From: Corynebacterium sp. sy039
Lineage (GTDB): Bacteria > Actinomycetota > Actinomycetes > Mycobacteriales > Mycobacteriaceae
Reading direction: 5' to 3'
DNA length: 64,000 bases
NCBI RefSeq assembly: GCF_007904105.1
Contig: NZ_CP042325.1
Coordinates: 496,001-560,000 of the forward strand
In this document: in pieces, positions 55,536-63,164 of the stretch
How the letters are laid out: the number at the start of each line of letters is the position of its first letter
How positions within the stretch are numbered: the first letter of the stretch is position 1
Program-made: the position numbers and the translations under genes
The notes under the pieces: model-generated
Told to the model about the DNA's origin: nothing
Databases searched by the model: none
What the model saw: the letters and a program-made list of their open reading frames with translations, nothing else

Positions 55536-56822
55536 CTAATCCTTTGTTCTCTTTGTCTGAATGCCGTCGGGAACTGCTCGTCCTTGTGGTGCAGCTAGTC
55601 GAGTATCGAATTGACTACTGGCTAGTCTGCGGTCGGCGTGGGTGATGAGGCTGAGGATGTCATCAGAGAAATAGCCTTGCAGACCATGTTTTCCGATAAT
55701 TTTTGTGCGTAAAATTCCAGCATTTTCAAGGCTATCTAGTGCTTTACGGGCATTAGCTGTACTTATGCCGTAAATTCGCTGGACAGAGGTGGTGGTTACA
55801 ATGGGATGTCCAGCAAGTCCCTGTAGTAATTGTGCTTCTATTGAATCTGTGCGTAATGCACGGGTTTTCCCTTGGGCTGTGCGTGCAATAGTTAAAGCGT
55901 CATGCCATTGCTGTTGAATATCGCGTAATTGGTTCGCAATTATTTGTGCTTGTTGTATCGCTTGTTCTGTTGCATCGAGAAAGATATTTAGCCAGGTATG
56001 AATGTCTCCTTTTCGGAAAGCTGTGAGTCCTTCGATATATAGCTGGGACCATGTTCCTAATATCAAACTTATGGGGAGTATGGTGCGTTGGATAAGATTA
56101 CGGCGTAGCAATACTCCGTGAATAAGCGCACGGCCAACTCTGCCATTTCCATCAGCGAAAGGGTGAATAGTCTCAAATTGAGCATGGGTAAGTGCAGCTT
56201 GAATAAGTGCACCATGTGCGGCTCCATTGAGGTATTCGCATAGATCTTCCATGAGCTCAGGGACATAGTTTGGTGGGGCGGGAATGAACTCTGCTCCGAT
56301 GGGGGTGTAGGAATTTCCACCAATCCAATTTTGTAATGTTCGTATCCCGGTGGGAATTGATGTTTTCCCAAGCAATTCTCGTTGGAATTTTTCTAATAAT
56401 TGGATACTGATAGTTTCTTCTGAGCGGAAGTGTGCTTCGATCCCGTGTAGAACGTGCACATTGCGCGCTACGGCTTCTGCGCCTTCTTTAAAGCCGCGTA
56501 TTTCTTCTTGTTGGGCGAGTTCGGCTAGGACTACTTTGTCTACTCGTGGTGCGATGCCTTCAATTCTGGAGGAGGATAGTGCTTCTGAGCGTAAAAGGAG
56601 ACGTGAGATATTTCCTAACGCGGTCATATCTTCGTGTGTGCTTAGTGTGCTAATTGCTTGTTCGACGTGTGCTGCGCGTTTAGCTATTTCGGGGTCAATG
56701 TGAAGTGGTGTAGTGCTAAGCAAATCGGGTACGTAGGCGCGGTATGTGCCTCCAGCTTTTTCACGCCGGGGTAGTCCTGAGCCATCTGGTGGGATCCAGT
56801 GGCATGTGATATGAGTGGGCAT
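55536..56822 (-). CDS. Fic-domain AMP-transferase with class II inhibitory motif
   Basis: A 428-residue Fic protein. The Fic core motif HPFADGNGRVGR near residue 215 has all catalytic and nucleotide-binding residues. An N-terminal helix has SSRIEG, the (S/T)xxxE(G/N) motif that blocks ATP in class II Fic proteins, so it is self-inhibited. A winged-helix DNA-binding end (VTTTSVQRIYGISTANARKALDSLENAGIL) suggests it may regulate its own gene or associate with DNA. Substrates of such proteins are mostly unknown. It begins the region after the tRNA where gene order conserved in relatives ends. No toxin-antitoxin partner gene is adjacent. Confidence 0.92.
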   Translation of the reverse strand: MPTHITCHWIPPDGSGLPRREKAGGTYRAYVPDLLSTTPLHIDPEIAKRAAHVEQAISTLSTHEDMTALGNISRLLLRSEALSSSRIEGIAPRVDKVVLAELAQQEEIRGFKEGAEAVARNVHVLHGIEAHFRSEETISIQLLEKFQRELLGKTSIPTGIRTLQNWIGGNSYTPIGAEFIPAPPNYVPELMEDLCEYLNGAAHGALIQAALTHAQFETIHPFADGNGRVGRALIHGVLLRRNLIQRTILPISLILGTWSQLYIEGLTAFRKGDIHTWLNIFLDATEQAIQQAQIIANQLRDIQQQWHDALTIARTAQGKTRALRTDSIEAQLLQGLAGHPIVTTTSVQRIYGISTANARKALDSLENAGILRTKIIGKHGLQGYFSDDILSLITHADRRLASSQFDTRLAAPQGRAVPDGIQTKRTKD

Positions 56823-56953
56823 TTAACGCTTTTCCGATCGAACTGAGACAAATGAAGAATGTTTAAGAGTTATCTATACACTCTACAGTAGTTTGATGTA
56901 CGGATAACTATTTTCCATATATTCTGAATGCTGCCTAGTGCACTGGCTTTTCG

Positions 56954-56984
56954 ACGCTCATGCTTTGTGCATGGGCGTTTTTTG
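56954..56984 (+). terminator. Orphan rho-independent terminator
   Basis: ACGCTCATGC (56954-56963) pairs with GCATGGGCGT (56969-56978), with one G:T pair and loop TTTGT, followed by TTTTTG. On the plus strand no gene ends here: the Fic gene is on the minus strand and starts at 56822. It may end an unannotated small RNA in 56823-56953 or be left from a lost gene. Confidence 0.75.
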
Positions 56985-57003
56985 TTATAGGGGTGCTGTA
57001 GTG

Positions 57004-57199
57004 TGCTGTGTTCTACCAAAATTGACATATAGATTTTACCTATAAAATATATAGATATTTTCCTGGTGTTTTACCAATTAGAGAGCGCGGCACCTCCGTC
57101 AACAACGTGAAAAAGAGGACACTTTATGCCAGTTTGCGTCCCTATCTGTGCAGGTGAGGGGTTCTTGTTAGTCTATGTCAATTTTGGTAGAACACAGCA
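57004..57199. mobile_element. MITE-like element, 196 bp, with 26-bp terminal inverted repeats and 9-bp target duplication
   Basis: Positions 57004-57029 and 57174-57199 are perfect inverse complements over 26 bp, beginning TGCTGTGTTCTACC and ending TTGACATA at the inner side. Immediately outside, GCTGTAGTG occurs as a direct repeat at 56995-57003 and 57200-57208, exactly abutting both ends, as left by transposition with a 9-bp stagger. The 144-bp interior has no coding frame; it has an AT-rich start with AAAATAT/ATATTTT (57044-57061). The left end supplies a TTGACA pointing inward. The family of the donor transposase cannot be named from this window. Confidence 0.9.
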
Positions 57200-57229
57200 G
57201 CTGTAGTGGGTGCGTGAGCACTCTCTCGG

Positions 57230-57262
57230 TTGGACATTTTTATGGGGGGGGGGGGCTACTCT
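57230..57262 (+). promoter_or_regulatory. Candidate promoter with a 12-G homopolymer in its spacer
   Basis: TTGGAC (57230-57235) resembles a -35 and TACTCT (57257-57262) a weak -10, separated by 21 bases that include a run of 12 G at 57244-57255. Loss of 3 or 4 G would give an 18- or 17-base spacer, so slippage could turn transcription of the repeat-protein gene (ATG 57306) on and off. The run also lies at the start of a possible small frame (ATG 57242). An in-frame TAA at 57294 rules out direct fusion to the main protein. Confidence 0.5.
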
Positions 57263-57305
57263 TTAGGTGTTTTATGTTTTCTTAAGGTTTTTCTAAGGAG
57301 TGTTC

Positions 57306-60300
57306 ATGGGGAAGAAACACTGGTTGCTGCGCCGTGTTGGTGCAGTGATTATGACTACTGGATTATTGTCCAGTGGTATGTGGGGTGGTGCTGGCTCTGG
57401 TGTTGGTGTGCCTGTGGTGTGGGCTGCTGATGAAACAACAGCACCAGCGGCGGATACTGCTAGCCCGAAAAAGTTGCCTGGTAAACCTGGTGAGCCTGGT
57501 TCAGCTATTAAAAGCCTGACAGTGGCAGCTGATCCTGATAACAAAAATAAGGTTGTGTTGAACGTTGATTTCGCGTTCCCTGATGACGCAAAACCAGGGG
57601 ATTATGTTGAATTCTCGGTGAGTAAGATGCAAGCAGGACGTGGCGGTTTTGCTTTCGTTGGAAGTGATTCACCTCTGAAGGATCCTAAGACAGGAAAAAC
57701 AATCGCTGTTGTAACATCAACCTTGGGTAGATTTCGTGTGACGTTGTTACCTGAATCCGATGGTCTAGTAAACCGTACCGCGCAGTTCACGCGTACAGAG
57801 GAGATCCCTTACAATCCATGTGATCGTGATCCAGCGTCGGTGGAATACACTGCGATAACAACTGATTCGCAGGGCAACAATCATAACTGGGGTTTATTCA
57901 CCGTGACAGAACGCAATAATACCGCATGCAATACCAACACGAACCCTATTCCTCGTGGCACGGTTGAGGGTATGCCTATCCCACGTATGGCATGTGCAAC
58001 ACGTCCCATGGTTTTGATGTATTATGATGCTCTCAATAAGAAAGCTACACAAGGTGCTGGCGTGTACGGTGATGCGAACGGTACTGTGTATGTGACTCCG
58101 CCGATTGGTGATGTTGGCGGTGCGAACGAAACCTTCCAAGACATCTATGTGCGTGTACGTGTAGATGAAGCACAAACACCCATGAAAATGATAGGGGGGT
58201 TCGATGCTGCTGGTGTGGATCTTAATGATTCTAAAACATCAGGTTTTGATGATAATCTCGTTGGTGGATGGAAGCCTGGTGACATTGGGACGAAGTACCC
58301 TGAGGGTACTCGTGTACCACCGCAAGCCTATGTGTATCCACCTGACTTTGATCTCGAGGGTGTGAAAGCGAAAGCACAACCAGGAACCAACGGACTAAGT
58401 GAGTCTTTTGACTGGAACAGTAAAACAATTACTCAAGAAGACGCTACTGCTTTAGGTAAATTGTTTAGGGAAGCATATGAATCCTGGAAGGAAGCTCATA
58501 AGCCTGAGGTGATTGGATCCAACACTGATCCTGCAAACGGCACCGTGTACGTGGACTATAAGATCCCTGGGTTGTATAAACCTGTGATCATGAAAAACGC
58601 CTGGGGAGAGCCTGTTGCATCATTGCGCACTAGAGGCGAGGTTGACCTTGATGAGAATGGTAATGCTAGTGCTAATGTCGTAGCTTCAATGCTCGAGACG
58701 AATGCCTTGTATCGACTCTCTGTTTTTGGTGGTGATGTGTTTGCTCCGTATTCTGGTGCTGCGAAGTACAACACTATCCTGACGTATTCCACTGATCCTG
58801 TGAGTTATAAGGAAGGTGCTCACGTCGGTGGTGGTGCGCATTATGGTTCCTGCGGTGAAGCAGGTGCTACACCGTTTGTTGCTCAGGAAGGTGTTGCTGC
58901 TGGTGATCCGCTCCAAGCAAAACCTGTGCCTCGTGTGAGCGTGAGCAAGAGGGTCAATGGTGAGGGTGCGAATGAGGCTCCTGGTATTGCTGCTGCTGAG
59001 GGCAAAGAATTATCGTTTAGGTTTATGATCCGTAACTCGGGTAATACGGTGCTGAAAAACCTGAAACTTGCTGATGATAAGATCCCAGCTGATCAAATCA
59101 CTTGTGGTAAAAACAGTCTTGATACTGTTGTGCTACAGCCTGCTGAAACAGTGGCATGTACTGCAACATTGCCTGCTCTGAAACCTGGTGAGCAGCATAC
59201 AAACATTGCGACAGTAACAGCAACACCAGTGGATAAGGATGGTAATCCTGTTGATGGTGGGGATGTTTCGTCACAGGATCCTGCGAATGCGCATGGTGCA
59301 GTCCCTGGTGTTGAACTTGTGAAGAAGATTAACGCTGTGGATGCTAACACCACACAGGATGCTGTTGTGGTTGATGCGGACTCAGATATGAGTGTCATGT
59401 TTGAGGTGACTAATACTGGTGATATGCCGTTGAAGGATATTGTGGTCAGTGATGATGTGATTACTGATCCAAGTAACATTACGTGTCCTGGTCGACCAGA
59501 GAAACTGAATCCTGGTGCGAAACTGATTTGTTATGCAACCCTGCCTGCACCTCAGGCTGGTGAGATGCATACGAATACGGGTACGGTGACTGCTACACCT
59601 GTGGATAAGGATGGTAATCCTGTGGGTGATACACCGTTAACGGATTCTGACCCAGCGAATGCTCGGGTACCGAAACCACGTGTTCCTGGTGTTCGGGTGG
59701 TGAAGTTGATTAATGGTGATGATGCGAATCGTGAGCCTGGTGTTGCTGTGAAACCTGGTGAGTCGTTGAACATTTCGTTTGAGGTGTCGAACACGGGTGA
59801 AACACCACTCAAAGACGTGACAGTGTCTGACGATCAGATTAAGAATGCTCAGGATATTGTGTGTGAGAATAAACCAGATGTTCTTGCACCGGGTGAGTCG
59901 TTTACGTGTACGGCCACGTTGCCGGCACCAAGCTCTGGTGTCACACATAAGGATACTGCGACAGTAACTGGTACTCCGGTGGATGAGGAGGGTCATCCTG
60001 TGGGTGATACTCCTGTCACTGATGATGATTCGGCGTTTGCGTGGTTGGATGAGCCAGCGAAAGTAGCCAAAATCCCATCGATTAAAGTGATTAAGAAGAT
60101 TGATGGTGATGATGCGAATGTGGCACCGGGTGTGAGGGTAGCCCCTGGTAGCGATATGAAGGTGTCGTTTGAGGTGACTAATGATGGTTCGGCAGCACTA
60201 GAGAACATTAATCTCACGGATAATGTGATCCCTGCGAAAGATATTGTGTGTGCGGATAAACCTGAGTCACTGAAGCCTGGTGAGTCGTTTACGTGTTCTG

Positions 60301-63164
60301 CGACATTGAAGGCTCCTGTGTCTGGTGATCATGTGAATATCGCAACGGTTGAGGCAACCCCTGTGTATGGTGATGGTGAGTTTGGTCCAACGAGCCCTGT
60401 GTTGGATGTTGATCCTGCGCGTGCGTGGGTGGATGAACCAGTAAAAGTAGCCAAGGTTCCTTCTGTGAAGGTGATGAAGAGTATTAATGGTGATGATGCG
60501 AATGCGTATCCTGGTGTGGGTGTAGCCCCTGGTAGTGATATGAGCATCTCGTTTGTGGTGACGAATGATGGTGATGTGGCACTGGAAAGCATTGATCTCA
60601 CGGATAATGTGATCCCAGCAGACCACATCACCTGTGCGAATAAACCAGAGTCACTTAAGCCTGGTCAGTCGTTTACGTGTTCTGCTACGTTGAAGGCTCC
60701 TGTGTCTGGTAAGCATGTGAATATCGCGGCAGTAGAGGGCACACCTGTTTATGGTGAGGGTGAGTCTGGTCCCACAAGCCCTGTGTCGGATGTTGATCCT
60801 GCGCGTGCGTGGGTGGATGAGCCAGCTTCGGTGGTGAAGACTCCTGCTATTAGTGTGATCAAAAAGATTAATGGTGATGATGCGAATGTGTATCCTGGTG
60901 TGAAAGTTGGGCCAGGTAGTGACATGGACATTGTGTTTGAGGTGACCAATACTGGTTCGGCAACACTGGAAAAGATTGATCTCACGGATAATGTGATCCC
61001 AGCGAAAGACATCACCTGTGAGAATAAACCAGAGTCACTCAAGCCTGGCCAGTCGTTTACGTGTTCTGCGACATTGAAGGCTCCTGCTACGGGTGAGCAT
61101 GTGAATATCGCAACCGCCCAGGCAACACCTGTGTATGGTGAGGGTGAGTCTGGTCCCACAAGCCCTGTGTCTGATGATGATCCTGCGCGTGCGTGGGTGG
61201 ATGAACCACAAAAAGAAGTGAAGAAGCCTTCTATTACTGTGGTGAAGAAGATTAATGACGAGGATGCGAACACGAAGCCTGGTGTGAAGGTTCAACCAGG
61301 TGAGGATATGGACATCGTGTTTGAGGTGACCAATACTGGTACCGCAACACTAGGCAATGTCACTGTGTCGGATAATGTGATTCCAGCAGACCACATCACC
61401 TGTGCGGATAAACCTGAAACACTCAAGCCTGGTGAGTCGTTCACCTGCCATGCGACATTGGCGGCACCAGCGTCTGGTGATCATGTGAATATCGCAACGG
61501 TTGAAGGCACACCAGTGTATGGTGAGGGTGAGACTGGCCCTGATTCTCCTGTGCGGGATTCTGATGAGGCGAATGCGTGGGTGGATGAACCACAGAAAGA
61601 AGTCAAGAAGCCTTCCATTACAGTGGTGAAGAAGATTAACGACGATGATGCCAATTCTAAGCCTGGTGTGAAAGTACAACCGGGTGAGGATATGGACATT
61701 GTGTTTGAGGTGACCAATACTGGTACCGCAACACTCGGTGACATTACTGTGTCGGATAATGTGATTCCAGCGAAAGACATTGTGTGTGAGGATAAACCTG
61801 AAACACTCAACCCTGGCCAGTCGTTCACCTGCCATGCGACACTCAAGGCACCAAGTACGGGTGATCACGTGAATATCGCAACGGTTGAAGGCACACCGGT
61901 GTACGCCGATGGTGAGACTGGTTCTGATGGGCCGGTTAAGGATGTTGATGAGGCGAATGCGTGGGTGGATGTTCCTGATGCACCTGTGATGAATCCTTCT
62001 ATTACAGTGGTGAAGAAGATTAACGACGATGATGCCAATGCGAAGCCTGGTGTGAAGGTTCAACCTGGTGAGGATATGAGCATCGTGTTTGAGGTATCGA
62101 ATGATGGTGATGTGGCACTCGGTGACGTTGCATTGTCGGATAATGTGATCCCAGCAGACCAGATTACGTGTGAGGATAAGCCTGACACGTTGAATCCTGG
62201 TGACAGTTTCACGTGTTCTGCGACACTTACAGCACCATTGTCTGGTGATCATGTGAATATCGCAACGGTGGAAGGTACCCCTGTGTACGCGGAGGGTGAG
62301 TCTGGTCCGACTGATCCTGTTATGGATTCTGATGTTGCTCGTGCGTGGGTGGATGAGCCTGAGAAGGTGGTGAAGGTTCCTTCCATTACAGTGGTGAAGA
62401 AGATTAATGGTGATGATGCCAATAGTAAGCCTGGTGTGAAAGTACAACCAGGTGAAGACATGAACATCGTGTTTGAGGTGACTAATACTGGTTCGGCAGT
62501 ACTGGAAGACATTGATCTTGCGGATAATGTGATTCCATCGGATCAGATCACGTGTGAGGATAAACCAGAGTCACTCAAGCCTGGTGAGTCGTTCACCTGC
62601 CATGCGACACTCAAGGCACCATCGTCTGGTGATCATGTGAATATCGCAACCGCCCAGGCAACTCCTGTGTATGGTGATGGTGAGACTGGTTCTGATCAGC
62701 CTGTGTTGGATGTTGATGTGGCTCGTGCTGTGGTGGTGGAGCCTGACCAACCAGAACAACCAGAGCAGCCTGAGGAAGGCAAGCCTTCTAAACCTGCTAA
62801 GCCTGCTAAGCCTTCCAAGCCTGAGGCGGACAAGCCTGCTGGGTCGTGTGGTGAGTCTGTGGGTGTTAAGCCTGCGTGTGGCACACCAAGCGAACCTGAG
62901 TCCAGCAAACCTGGGTCTGAGCCTGGCCAGTCTGGTGGTGTGATTGCTGGTGAGGTTGTGAAGCATTGCCAGAAACCAACCAACCCTGGTGATAGTCCTG
63001 CCCAGTCTGGCACCAATCCTGCCGAGTCTGGCGAGCCTGTGAAGGCTGAGCCTGGTGCGGATAAGACCGCTAAGACGGTGAAGGCTGGTGCTAAGACTAA
63101 TACTGGTGGCAAGACTCAGAAGTCTGGTGTGCGGGTAACTACGGGTGGTCATCTAGCAGCGTAG
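57306..63164 (+). CDS. Giant secreted repeat protein, candidate surface adhesin
   Basis: A 1952-residue exported protein. The signal peptide spans about 1-40, with likely cleavage after VWA (VWA-ADE). Residues about 60-540 form a non-repeated region reading as beta-sandwich domains (AIKSLTVAADPDNKNKVVL; DYVEFSV) with several Cys. Ten tandem ~128-residue DUF11-like Ig-type repeats follow (about 544-1812), each with a KKIN-DDAN-PGV start, FEVTNTG and a Cys pair in ITC-x13/15-FTC that could form a disulfide. The tail is Pro/Lys/Glu-rich, then Gly/Ser/Pro, ending TTGGHLAA. No LPxTG, hydrophobic segment or basic end is seen, so sortase anchoring is not supported. AAGGAG lies 5 bases before ATG 57306. 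The exact ligand is unknown. Confidence 0.85.
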   Translation: MGKKHWLLRRVGAVIMTTGLLSSGMWGGAGSGVGVPVVWAADETTAPAADTASPKKLPGKPGEPGSAIKSLTVAADPDNKNKVVLNVDFAFPDDAKPGDYVEFSVSKMQAGRGGFAFVGSDSPLKDPKTGKTIAVVTSTLGRFRVTLLPESDGLVNRTAQFTRTEEIPYNPCDRDPASVEYTAITTDSQGNNHNWGLFTVTERNNTACNTNTNPIPRGTVEGMPIPRMACATRPMVLMYYDALNKKATQGAGVYGDANGTVYVTPPIGDVGGANETFQDIYVRVRVDEAQTPMKMIGGFDAAGVDLNDSKTSGFDDNLVGGWKPGDIGTKYPEGTRVPPQAYVYPPDFDLEGVKAKAQPGTNGLSESFDWNSKTITQEDATALGKLFREAYESWKEAHKPEVIGSNTDPANGTVYVDYKIPGLYKPVIMKNAWGEPVASLRTRGEVDLDENGNASANVVASMLETNALYRLSVFGGDVFAPYSGAAKYNTILTYSTDPVSYKEGAHVGGGAHYGSCGEAGATPFVAQEGVAAGDPLQAKPVPRVSVSKRVNGEGANEAPGIAAAEGKELSFRFMIRNSGNTVLKNLKLADDKIPADQITCGKNSLDTVVLQPAETVACTATLPALKPGEQHTNIATVTATPVDKDGNPVDGGDVSSQDPANAHGAVPGVELVKKINAVDANTTQDAVVVDADSDMSVMFEVTNTGDMPLKDIVVSDDVITDPSNITCPGRPEKLNPGAKLICYATLPAPQAGEMHTNTGTVTATPVDKDGNPVGDTPLTDSDPANARVPKPRVPGVRVVKLINGDDANREPGVAVKPGESLNISFEVSNTGETPLKDVTVSDDQIKNAQDIVCENKPDVLAPGESFTCTATLPAPSSGVTHKDTATVTGTPVDEEGHPVGDTPVTDDDSAFAWLDEPAKVAKIPSIKVIKKIDGDDANVAPGVRVAPGSDMKVSFEVTNDGSAALENINLTDNVIPAKDIVCADKPESLKPGESFTCSATLKAPVSGDHVNIATVEATPVYGDGEFGPTSPVLDVDPARAWVDEPVKVAKVPSVKVMKSINGDDANAYPGVGVAPGSDMSISFVVTNDGDVALESIDLTDNVIPADHITCANKPESLKPGQSFTCSATLKAPVSGKHVNIAAVEGTPVYGEGESGPTSPVSDVDPARAWVDEPASVVKTPAISVIKKINGDDANVYPGVKVGPGSDMDIVFEVTNTGSATLEKIDLTDNVIPAKDITCENKPESLKPGQSFTCSATLKAPATGEHVNIATAQATPVYGEGESGPTSPVSDDDPARAWVDEPQKEVKKPSITVVKKINDEDANTKPGVKVQPGEDMDIVFEVTNTGTATLGNVTVSDNVIPADHITCADKPETLKPGESFTCHATLAAPASGDHVNIATVEGTPVYGEGETGPDSPVRDSDEANAWVDEPQKEVKKPSITVVKKINDDDANSKPGVKVQPGEDMDIVFEVTNTGTATLGDITVSDNVIPAKDIVCEDKPETLNPGQSFTCHATLKAPSTGDHVNIATVEGTPVYADGETGSDGPVKDVDEANAWVDVPDAPVMNPSITVVKKINDDDANAKPGVKVQPGEDMSIVFEVSNDGDVALGDVALSDNVIPADQITCEDKPDTLNPGDSFTCSATLTAPLSGDHVNIATVEGTPVYAEGESGPTDPVMDSDVARAWVDEPEKVVKVPSITVVKKINGDDANSKPGVKVQPGEDMNIVFEVTNTGSAVLEDIDLADNVIPSDQITCEDKPESLKPGESFTCHATLKAPSSGDHVNIATAQATPVYGDGETGSDQPVLDVDVARAVVVEPDQPEQPEQPEEGKPSKPAKPAKPSKPEADKPAGSCGESVGVKPACGTPSEPESSKPGSEPGQSGGVIAGEVVKHCQKPTNPGDSPAQSGTNPAESGEPVKAEPGADKTAKTVKAGAKTNTGGKTQKSGVRVTTGGHLAA
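58935..62741 (+). repeat. Ten tandem DUF11-like coding repeats, period 384 bp
   Basis: Repeat starts (the first residue before V-x-K) fall at 58935, 59310, 59691, 60081, 60465, 60849, 61233, 61617, 62001 and 62385. The last seven units are spaced exactly 384 bp (128 residues); the first three differ in length (125, 127, 130). Units 4-10 are closely similar, with long shared blocks at DNA level; units 1-3 are more diverged. This pattern indicates recent expansion of the C-terminal units by recombination. Confidence 0.93.

Follow-up and report, generated by a model that had tools for sequence, protein, structure and literature searches.

The 64,000-nucleotide window analysed here covers positions 496001–560000 of the 2,236,339-bp, single-contig genome of Corynebacterium sp. 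sy039. A Fic-family gene on the minus strand (55536–56822) and a surface-protein gene on the plus strand (57306–63164), the latter encoding repeated DUF7507/DUF11-type domains, face away from each other across a region that contains, on the plus strand, a terminator-like hairpin with a T-run (56953–56979), the pentamer GGGGT (56990–56994), a MITE of 196 bp (57004–57199) related to a resident IS1595-family element and a promoter-like module (57230–57262). The surface-protein gene could start at GTG 57300 or ATG 57306, with AAGGAG at 57295; the ATG is the likelier start.

The terminal inverted repeats (TIRs) of the MITE, at 57004–57029 on the plus strand and 57174–57199 on the minus strand, are complementary at 26 of 26 positions and lie 144 nt apart. 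The nonamer GCTGTAGTG is duplicated directly outside both TIRs, at 56995–57003 and 57200–57208. Bases beyond the two copies are unequal on either side (t56994 versus a57199, and t57004 versus g57209), so the target-site duplication (TSD) is exactly 9 bp long. The element contains no open reading frame of 80 or more residues. The TIR, allowing up to three mismatches, did not occur in 100 shuffles of the window, and a repeat finder seeded with 12-base exact matches detected nothing else in the 64 kb that forms an inverted repeat of 18 bp or longer with no more than 600 bp between its arms. The coordinates and perfect pairing of the TIRs and the 9-bp duplication on both sides, as reported in an earlier note on this DNA, are thus exact, and its distance of about 100 bp to the giant repeat-protein gene is right (57199 versus starts at 57300 and 57306).

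The genome holds four copies of the MITE, the other three being 94–97% identical to the window copy. Those at 152649 and 930291 are each 197 bp long and identical to one another, and have different TSDs. Perfect 9-bp TSDs, all mutually different, flank three of the four copies, including that of the window; the fourth (1050589–1050782) has decayed ends and no TSD. An orphan family end lies at 1049241, 1.3 kb from this decayed copy, with open reading frames of 217 and 123 aa in between, and the stretch 1049241–1050782 is possibly the remains of another passenger-carrying element. The copy at 152649 (L139 1250–1446) is plus-oriented and lies approximately 180 bp ahead of a plus-strand open reading frame, presumably encoding a phosphate-permease-type transporter.

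The same genome contains seven copies of an insertion sequence (IS) of 1406–1411 bp that carries the same 25-bp ends as the MITE and is flanked by 9-bp TSDs in all seven cases. Three of these copies are identical; the 335-aa transposase frame is intact in four and altered or broken in three. MITE bases 1–25, and hence the first 25 bp of the left TIR, match the 1411-bp IS exactly at its left end. On the right side, MITE positions 145–196 correspond at 94% identity to IS positions 1358–1411, its final 54 bp, and positions 136–197 of a sister copy are 92% identical, giving shared ends of 25 bp on the left and 54–63 bp on the right. A genome-wide scan for the 24-bp end, in which three mismatches were tolerated, returned 25 places, corresponding to 14 IS ends, eight MITE ends, two ends of a larger transposon and the orphan end, compared with none for a backward-pattern control. 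Altogether, 12 complete family elements were found, and 11 of them (seven IS, three MITEs and the larger transposon) have a 9-bp duplication, the twelfth being the decayed MITE copy. The 196 bp is therefore a MITE: it is short, lacks a transposase gene, has TIRs and a TSD, occurs at several sites and bears the ends of an autonomous element.

Sequence comparisons place the candidate parent transposase in the IS1595 family. Queried with an altered copy of 324 aa (L031:357–1331), the NCBIfam IS1595 model NF033547 scored 119.8 bits (cut-off 75) and the Pfam IS1595 domain PF12762 scored 26.2 bits, slightly below its cut-off of 27. The N-terminal zinc-binding domain was matched by NF050000 at 36.9 bits (cut-off 28) and by PF03811 at 25.6 bits, slightly below 26.1. 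In an alignment of ten sequences, that of this genome included, D148, D228 and N260 are invariant and K267 is nearly so; we take these four residues to be the catalytic set (DDNK). No solved structure matched the transposase by sequence at E ≤ 1e-3.

A natural empty site is present in the same genome. At a paralogous locus at 56.8 kb, GCTGTAGTG occurs once, the MITE is absent and the flanks continue through the insertion point. After removal of the MITE and one copy of the duplication, the window aligns with this locus at 445 of 467 bases (95%); with the MITE retained, the aligned region breaks in two, and both parts cover the same 9 bp of the paralogue, which directly demonstrates the insertion. 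The DNA common to both loci begins at 56946 and includes the terminator-like hairpin. We infer that the two loci had already been duplicated when the MITE inserted, unless it was precisely excised from the 56.8-kb locus. The earlier note had proposed transposition of a 196-bp non-coding element, and had named as support multiple copies, an IS sharing its ends and strains whose site is empty and carries a single GCTGTAGTG. This genome holds four copies of the MITE and seven of such an IS, and its empty site is a paralogous locus rather than the same locus in another strain. The note's suggestion of a recent insertion is supported, as a fairly recent event, by the perfect TIRs and TSD, and by the insertion having followed a duplication that still leaves 95% identity over 467 bp.

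The promoter-like module of the surface-protein gene, at 57230–57262, comprises TTGGAC, a tract of 12 G residues (57244–57255) and TACTCT, and is situated wholly between the MITE and the gene, the MITE stopping 30 bp ahead of the first box. Related modules with a G-tract of 11–13 residues stand directly before the start of a surface-protein gene at seven loci: the window and genome positions 56863, 63032, 65143, 265652, 309938 and 2111711. The tract is preceded by (C/T)TGGACATTTT at six of the seven, with CTGGCGTTTTGAT at 65143, and followed by CTA(C/T)TCTTTAGGTG at all seven, one of them with an extra T first. The module hexamers are of the (C/T)TGGAC type ahead of the tract (CTGGCG in one case) and of the TACTCT/TATTCT type beyond it. 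From this arrangement, the modules are probably slippage-controlled, phase-variable promoters, their promoter function being predicted. A homopolymer affecting promoter spacing in an actinobacterium has been described for Propionibacterium acnes (PMC4746626, excerpt).

For the surface-protein gene, the insertion is most likely neutral or almost neutral, since the promoter-like module belonging to this gene sits on the downstream side of the MITE. The earlier note had suggested that the MITE, which carries TTGACA and AT-rich sequence directed at the gene, may alter its expression. We considered an inward promoter, TTGACA-N15-TAAAAT (57022–57048, plus strand), reading through to the gene, and a splitting of the gene's promoter from upstream DNA. 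Such an effect is possible but unlikely. The hexamers TTGACA (57022–57027) and TAAAAT (57043–57048), returned by a looser scan, match 11 of 12 consensus bases and are aimed at the gene, with no terminator-like site detected by scanning between them and the gene; the copy at 152649 is similarly plus-oriented ahead of an open reading frame, and a precedent is MITEAba12, for which transcripts arising at an outward promoter are known (PMC6382973, excerpt). However, the spacer of this weak pair measures only 15 bp, making its function doubtful, and a sigma70-type scan of 56800–57400 with 16–18 bp spacing returned no site. The TTGGAC/G-tract/TACTCT module is intact downstream, with related modules at six MITE-free paralogues, and in the alignment the sequence ahead of the insertion point recurs only at the 56.8-kb locus and, over some 20 bp, at the 265-kb locus. 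The proposed effect on expression is thus unsupported.

The family elements show a common feature at their targets. GGG in the 6 bp ahead of the TSD, or CCC in the 6 bp following it, was found at 9 of 11 insertions, among them that of the window with its GGGGT directly outside the TSD, against a background of 6.45% (binomial P about 1e-9). In the opposite orientation, the feature was also somewhat enriched, at 4 of 11 (P 0.004). These features were picked after viewing the sites, and the P-values are descriptive. A run of G4 or C4 near or in the TSD characterised 8 of 11 insertions (background 8.5%), and G3 or C3 within 8 bp of the TSD 10 of 11 (background 17.9%). The 11 targets belong to seven IS, three MITEs and the larger element, the fourth MITE being omitted for want of a duplication; the background consists of 200,000 places from 117 kb, comprising the window and stretches around G-tracts, and is hence a non-random sample. 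These observations suggest that short G-runs attract insertions of the family elements next to them; such a target preference would be sharp and open to experimental testing.

Two of the seven surface-gene modules have an insertion beside them: the MITE in the window and, at the 265-kb locus, a full-length IS that stops 42 bp before the CTGGAC/TTGGAC-type box. Two insertions in 7 × 100 bp compare with 0.0034 expected at random (P about 6e-6, calculated post hoc). A preference for G-runs could explain both. That a G-run-targeting IS1595-type transposase would repeatedly insert before surface genes with G-tract promoters, so that MITE and IS tune or insulate phase-variable promoters, is a speculative reading that we consider decidedly unlikely.

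In a comparison with the N-terminal 525 aa of the window's surface protein, five of the seven proteins, itself among them, matched at 71–100%, and this N-terminal part was found in its own genome only among 242 genomes of the genus. Between the surface-protein gene of the window and its paralogue at 56.8 kb, the DNA is 95% identical up to approximately 57614, while the proteins are 73% identical over the first 525 aa (57306–58880); this mosaic conservation suggests antigenic diversification. A second family comprises 18 genes with a tract of 10–11 C residues at the end of the signal peptide (L113, L115, L119–L124 and L126). The N-terminal frame, read in 13 of these 18 genes, continues beyond 300 aa in five and stops after no more than roughly 50 aa overall in eight. 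The genome has 33 distinct G or C tracts of at least 10 residues, 32 of which were examined. Taken together, the seven G-tract surface genes and the 18 C-tract genes are a probable phase-variation repertoire. We find these gene sets more surprising, and of more interest, than the MITE, and promoters with G-tracts together with C-tracts in signal peptides would make phase variation directly testable in this organism.

Returning to the origin of the MITE, its interior (positions 27–144, and 27–135 in the sister copies) matches neither the IS nor the larger transposon beyond short words. Internal deletion of an autonomous element is the usual but not an obligatory origin of a MITE; here the ends match the IS and the interior does not, so that the MITE is probably not a plain internal deletion of the IS copies of this genome, and its interior may derive from an older relative. 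The larger transposon (912916–916603; L041 317–4004) is 3688 bp long, has the same ends and is flanked by the 9-bp duplication GGTTCTCAG. Compared with the IS, its transposase shows 79% identity at the DNA level and 81% at the protein level, and the frame contains one stop. It also carries genes for an EcoRI-type adenine methylase and for a protein with GmrSD and HNH domains, which together look like a mobile restriction-modification passenger. The unmatched interior and the existence of this third element type with the same ends would agree with a larger or older element ancestral to both IS and MITE, the MITE being moved by another transposase. We regard this as improbable: among the elements described here, intact transposase frames occur only in the IS, and the right end of the MITE is closer to the IS (94% over 54 bp) than to the larger transposon (82% over 60 bp). 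It is scarcely credible that the repeats form a long host hairpin that acts as RNA or DNA, for instance in termination or attenuation, with the flanking repeat coincidental, since the strong folding of the single strand (−68.4 kcal/mol, z −6.38) is a consequence of the TIRs, an Rfam search of 56800–57400 gave no match up to E = 1, and the IS ends, the occurrence of copies at several places with distinct 9-bp duplications and the empty site speak decisively against such an element.

We therefore favour, with a probability of about 0.95, a non-autonomous MITE that was moved by the resident IS1595-family transposase and inserted upstream of the surface-protein gene, after the duplication of the locus, most likely with little or no effect on the gene. 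The anatomy, copy number, shared ends and empty site can be read directly from the genome; from the sequences, we infer that the IS transposase was the mover. According to this model, the transposase would recognise the ends of the MITE and generate 9-bp target duplications, favouring sites beside short G-runs. The surface-protein gene and its upstream region would first have been duplicated between the window and the 56.8-kb locus, and the MITE would then have jumped into the site ATAGGGGT^GCTGTAGTG^GGTGCG, which is the context of the insertion. The locus thus provides a clean example of MITE insertion, in which the element, a candidate parent IS and a natural empty site all occur within one genome.

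Among the genomes searched, the element family was confined to this one. The earlier note had also proposed looking for copies in other Corynebacterium genomes; among 201 genomes of the genus, full copies of the MITE were confined to its own, and one other genome gave a single 26-bp match (E 9.9e-4), which we took as chance. The transposase was likewise found in its own genome only, both among 242 genomes of the genus (E ≤ 1e-30) and among 401 genomes drawn from the taxonomic family (E ≤ 1e-40). The exact 24-bp end was present in none of the viral contigs, and the MITE had no match in plasmids at E ≤ 0.01. The transposase matched 99 plasmid records; in the best 15 of the 99, the best places were all below 60% identity, with 36.6% at the top. 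At E ≤ 1e-3, its relatives numbered 15 proteins, two of them from its own genome, and the nearest protein outside it is 76% identical and lies on contigs no longer than 2,013 bases. A search of genome contigs with the single transposase protein as query yielded 21 pattern stretches and no confirmed relatives. An alignment-based search of genome contigs recovered 11 relatives with 28–37% identity, nine of which carry Eggerthellaceae, Coriobacteriaceae, Olsenella or Slackia in their titles. In the literature on IS1595, Corynebacterium IS and MITEs, and Corynebacterium phase variation, with most subscription journals outside its coverage, none of the papers listed describes the element by title and start of abstract; a search of the same coverage found no paper on MITEs in Corynebacterium diphtheriae.

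The resident IS resembles the IS1595 family in its NCBIfam match above cut-off, its N-terminal zinc-binding domain, its single transposase gene and its TIRs. The zinc-binding domain is present in every group of the family except IS1016. The family usually generates 8-bp duplications (PMC8101967, excerpt), unlike the 9 bp seen here at 11 of 11 duplicated sites, which is a small departure from the family. Merlin, a eukaryotic relative of IS1595, shares with the resident IS a related catalytic domain and has duplications of 8 or 9 bp, but it lacks a zinc-finger domain and has 5'-GG ends, whereas the resident elements end in TGCTGTG (PMC8101967, excerpt).

Among the MITEs compared, the closest is associated in Haloquadratum walsbyi with ISHwa6, of the IS1595 family (165 bp, seven copies, IR 25, DR 8; PMC3852290, excerpt). 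It is, like the window MITE, a short IS1595-family derivative of nearly equal size and TIR length; it differs in its archaeal host and its 8-bp duplications, the likeness being one of description. MITEAba12 of Acinetobacter (PMC6382973, excerpt) is similar in having a resident parent IS, 9-bp duplications and outward promoters under discussion. By its description, it is set apart by its parent, ISAba12, with 16-bp TIRs, and by its preference for AT-rich regions, whereas the window MITE adjoins G-runs; its promoter is supported by transcripts, while the promoter-like pair of the window MITE is putative and a sequence match only. MITEs of the IS1595 family are already known, and the window MITE is a further one, ordinary for bacteria.
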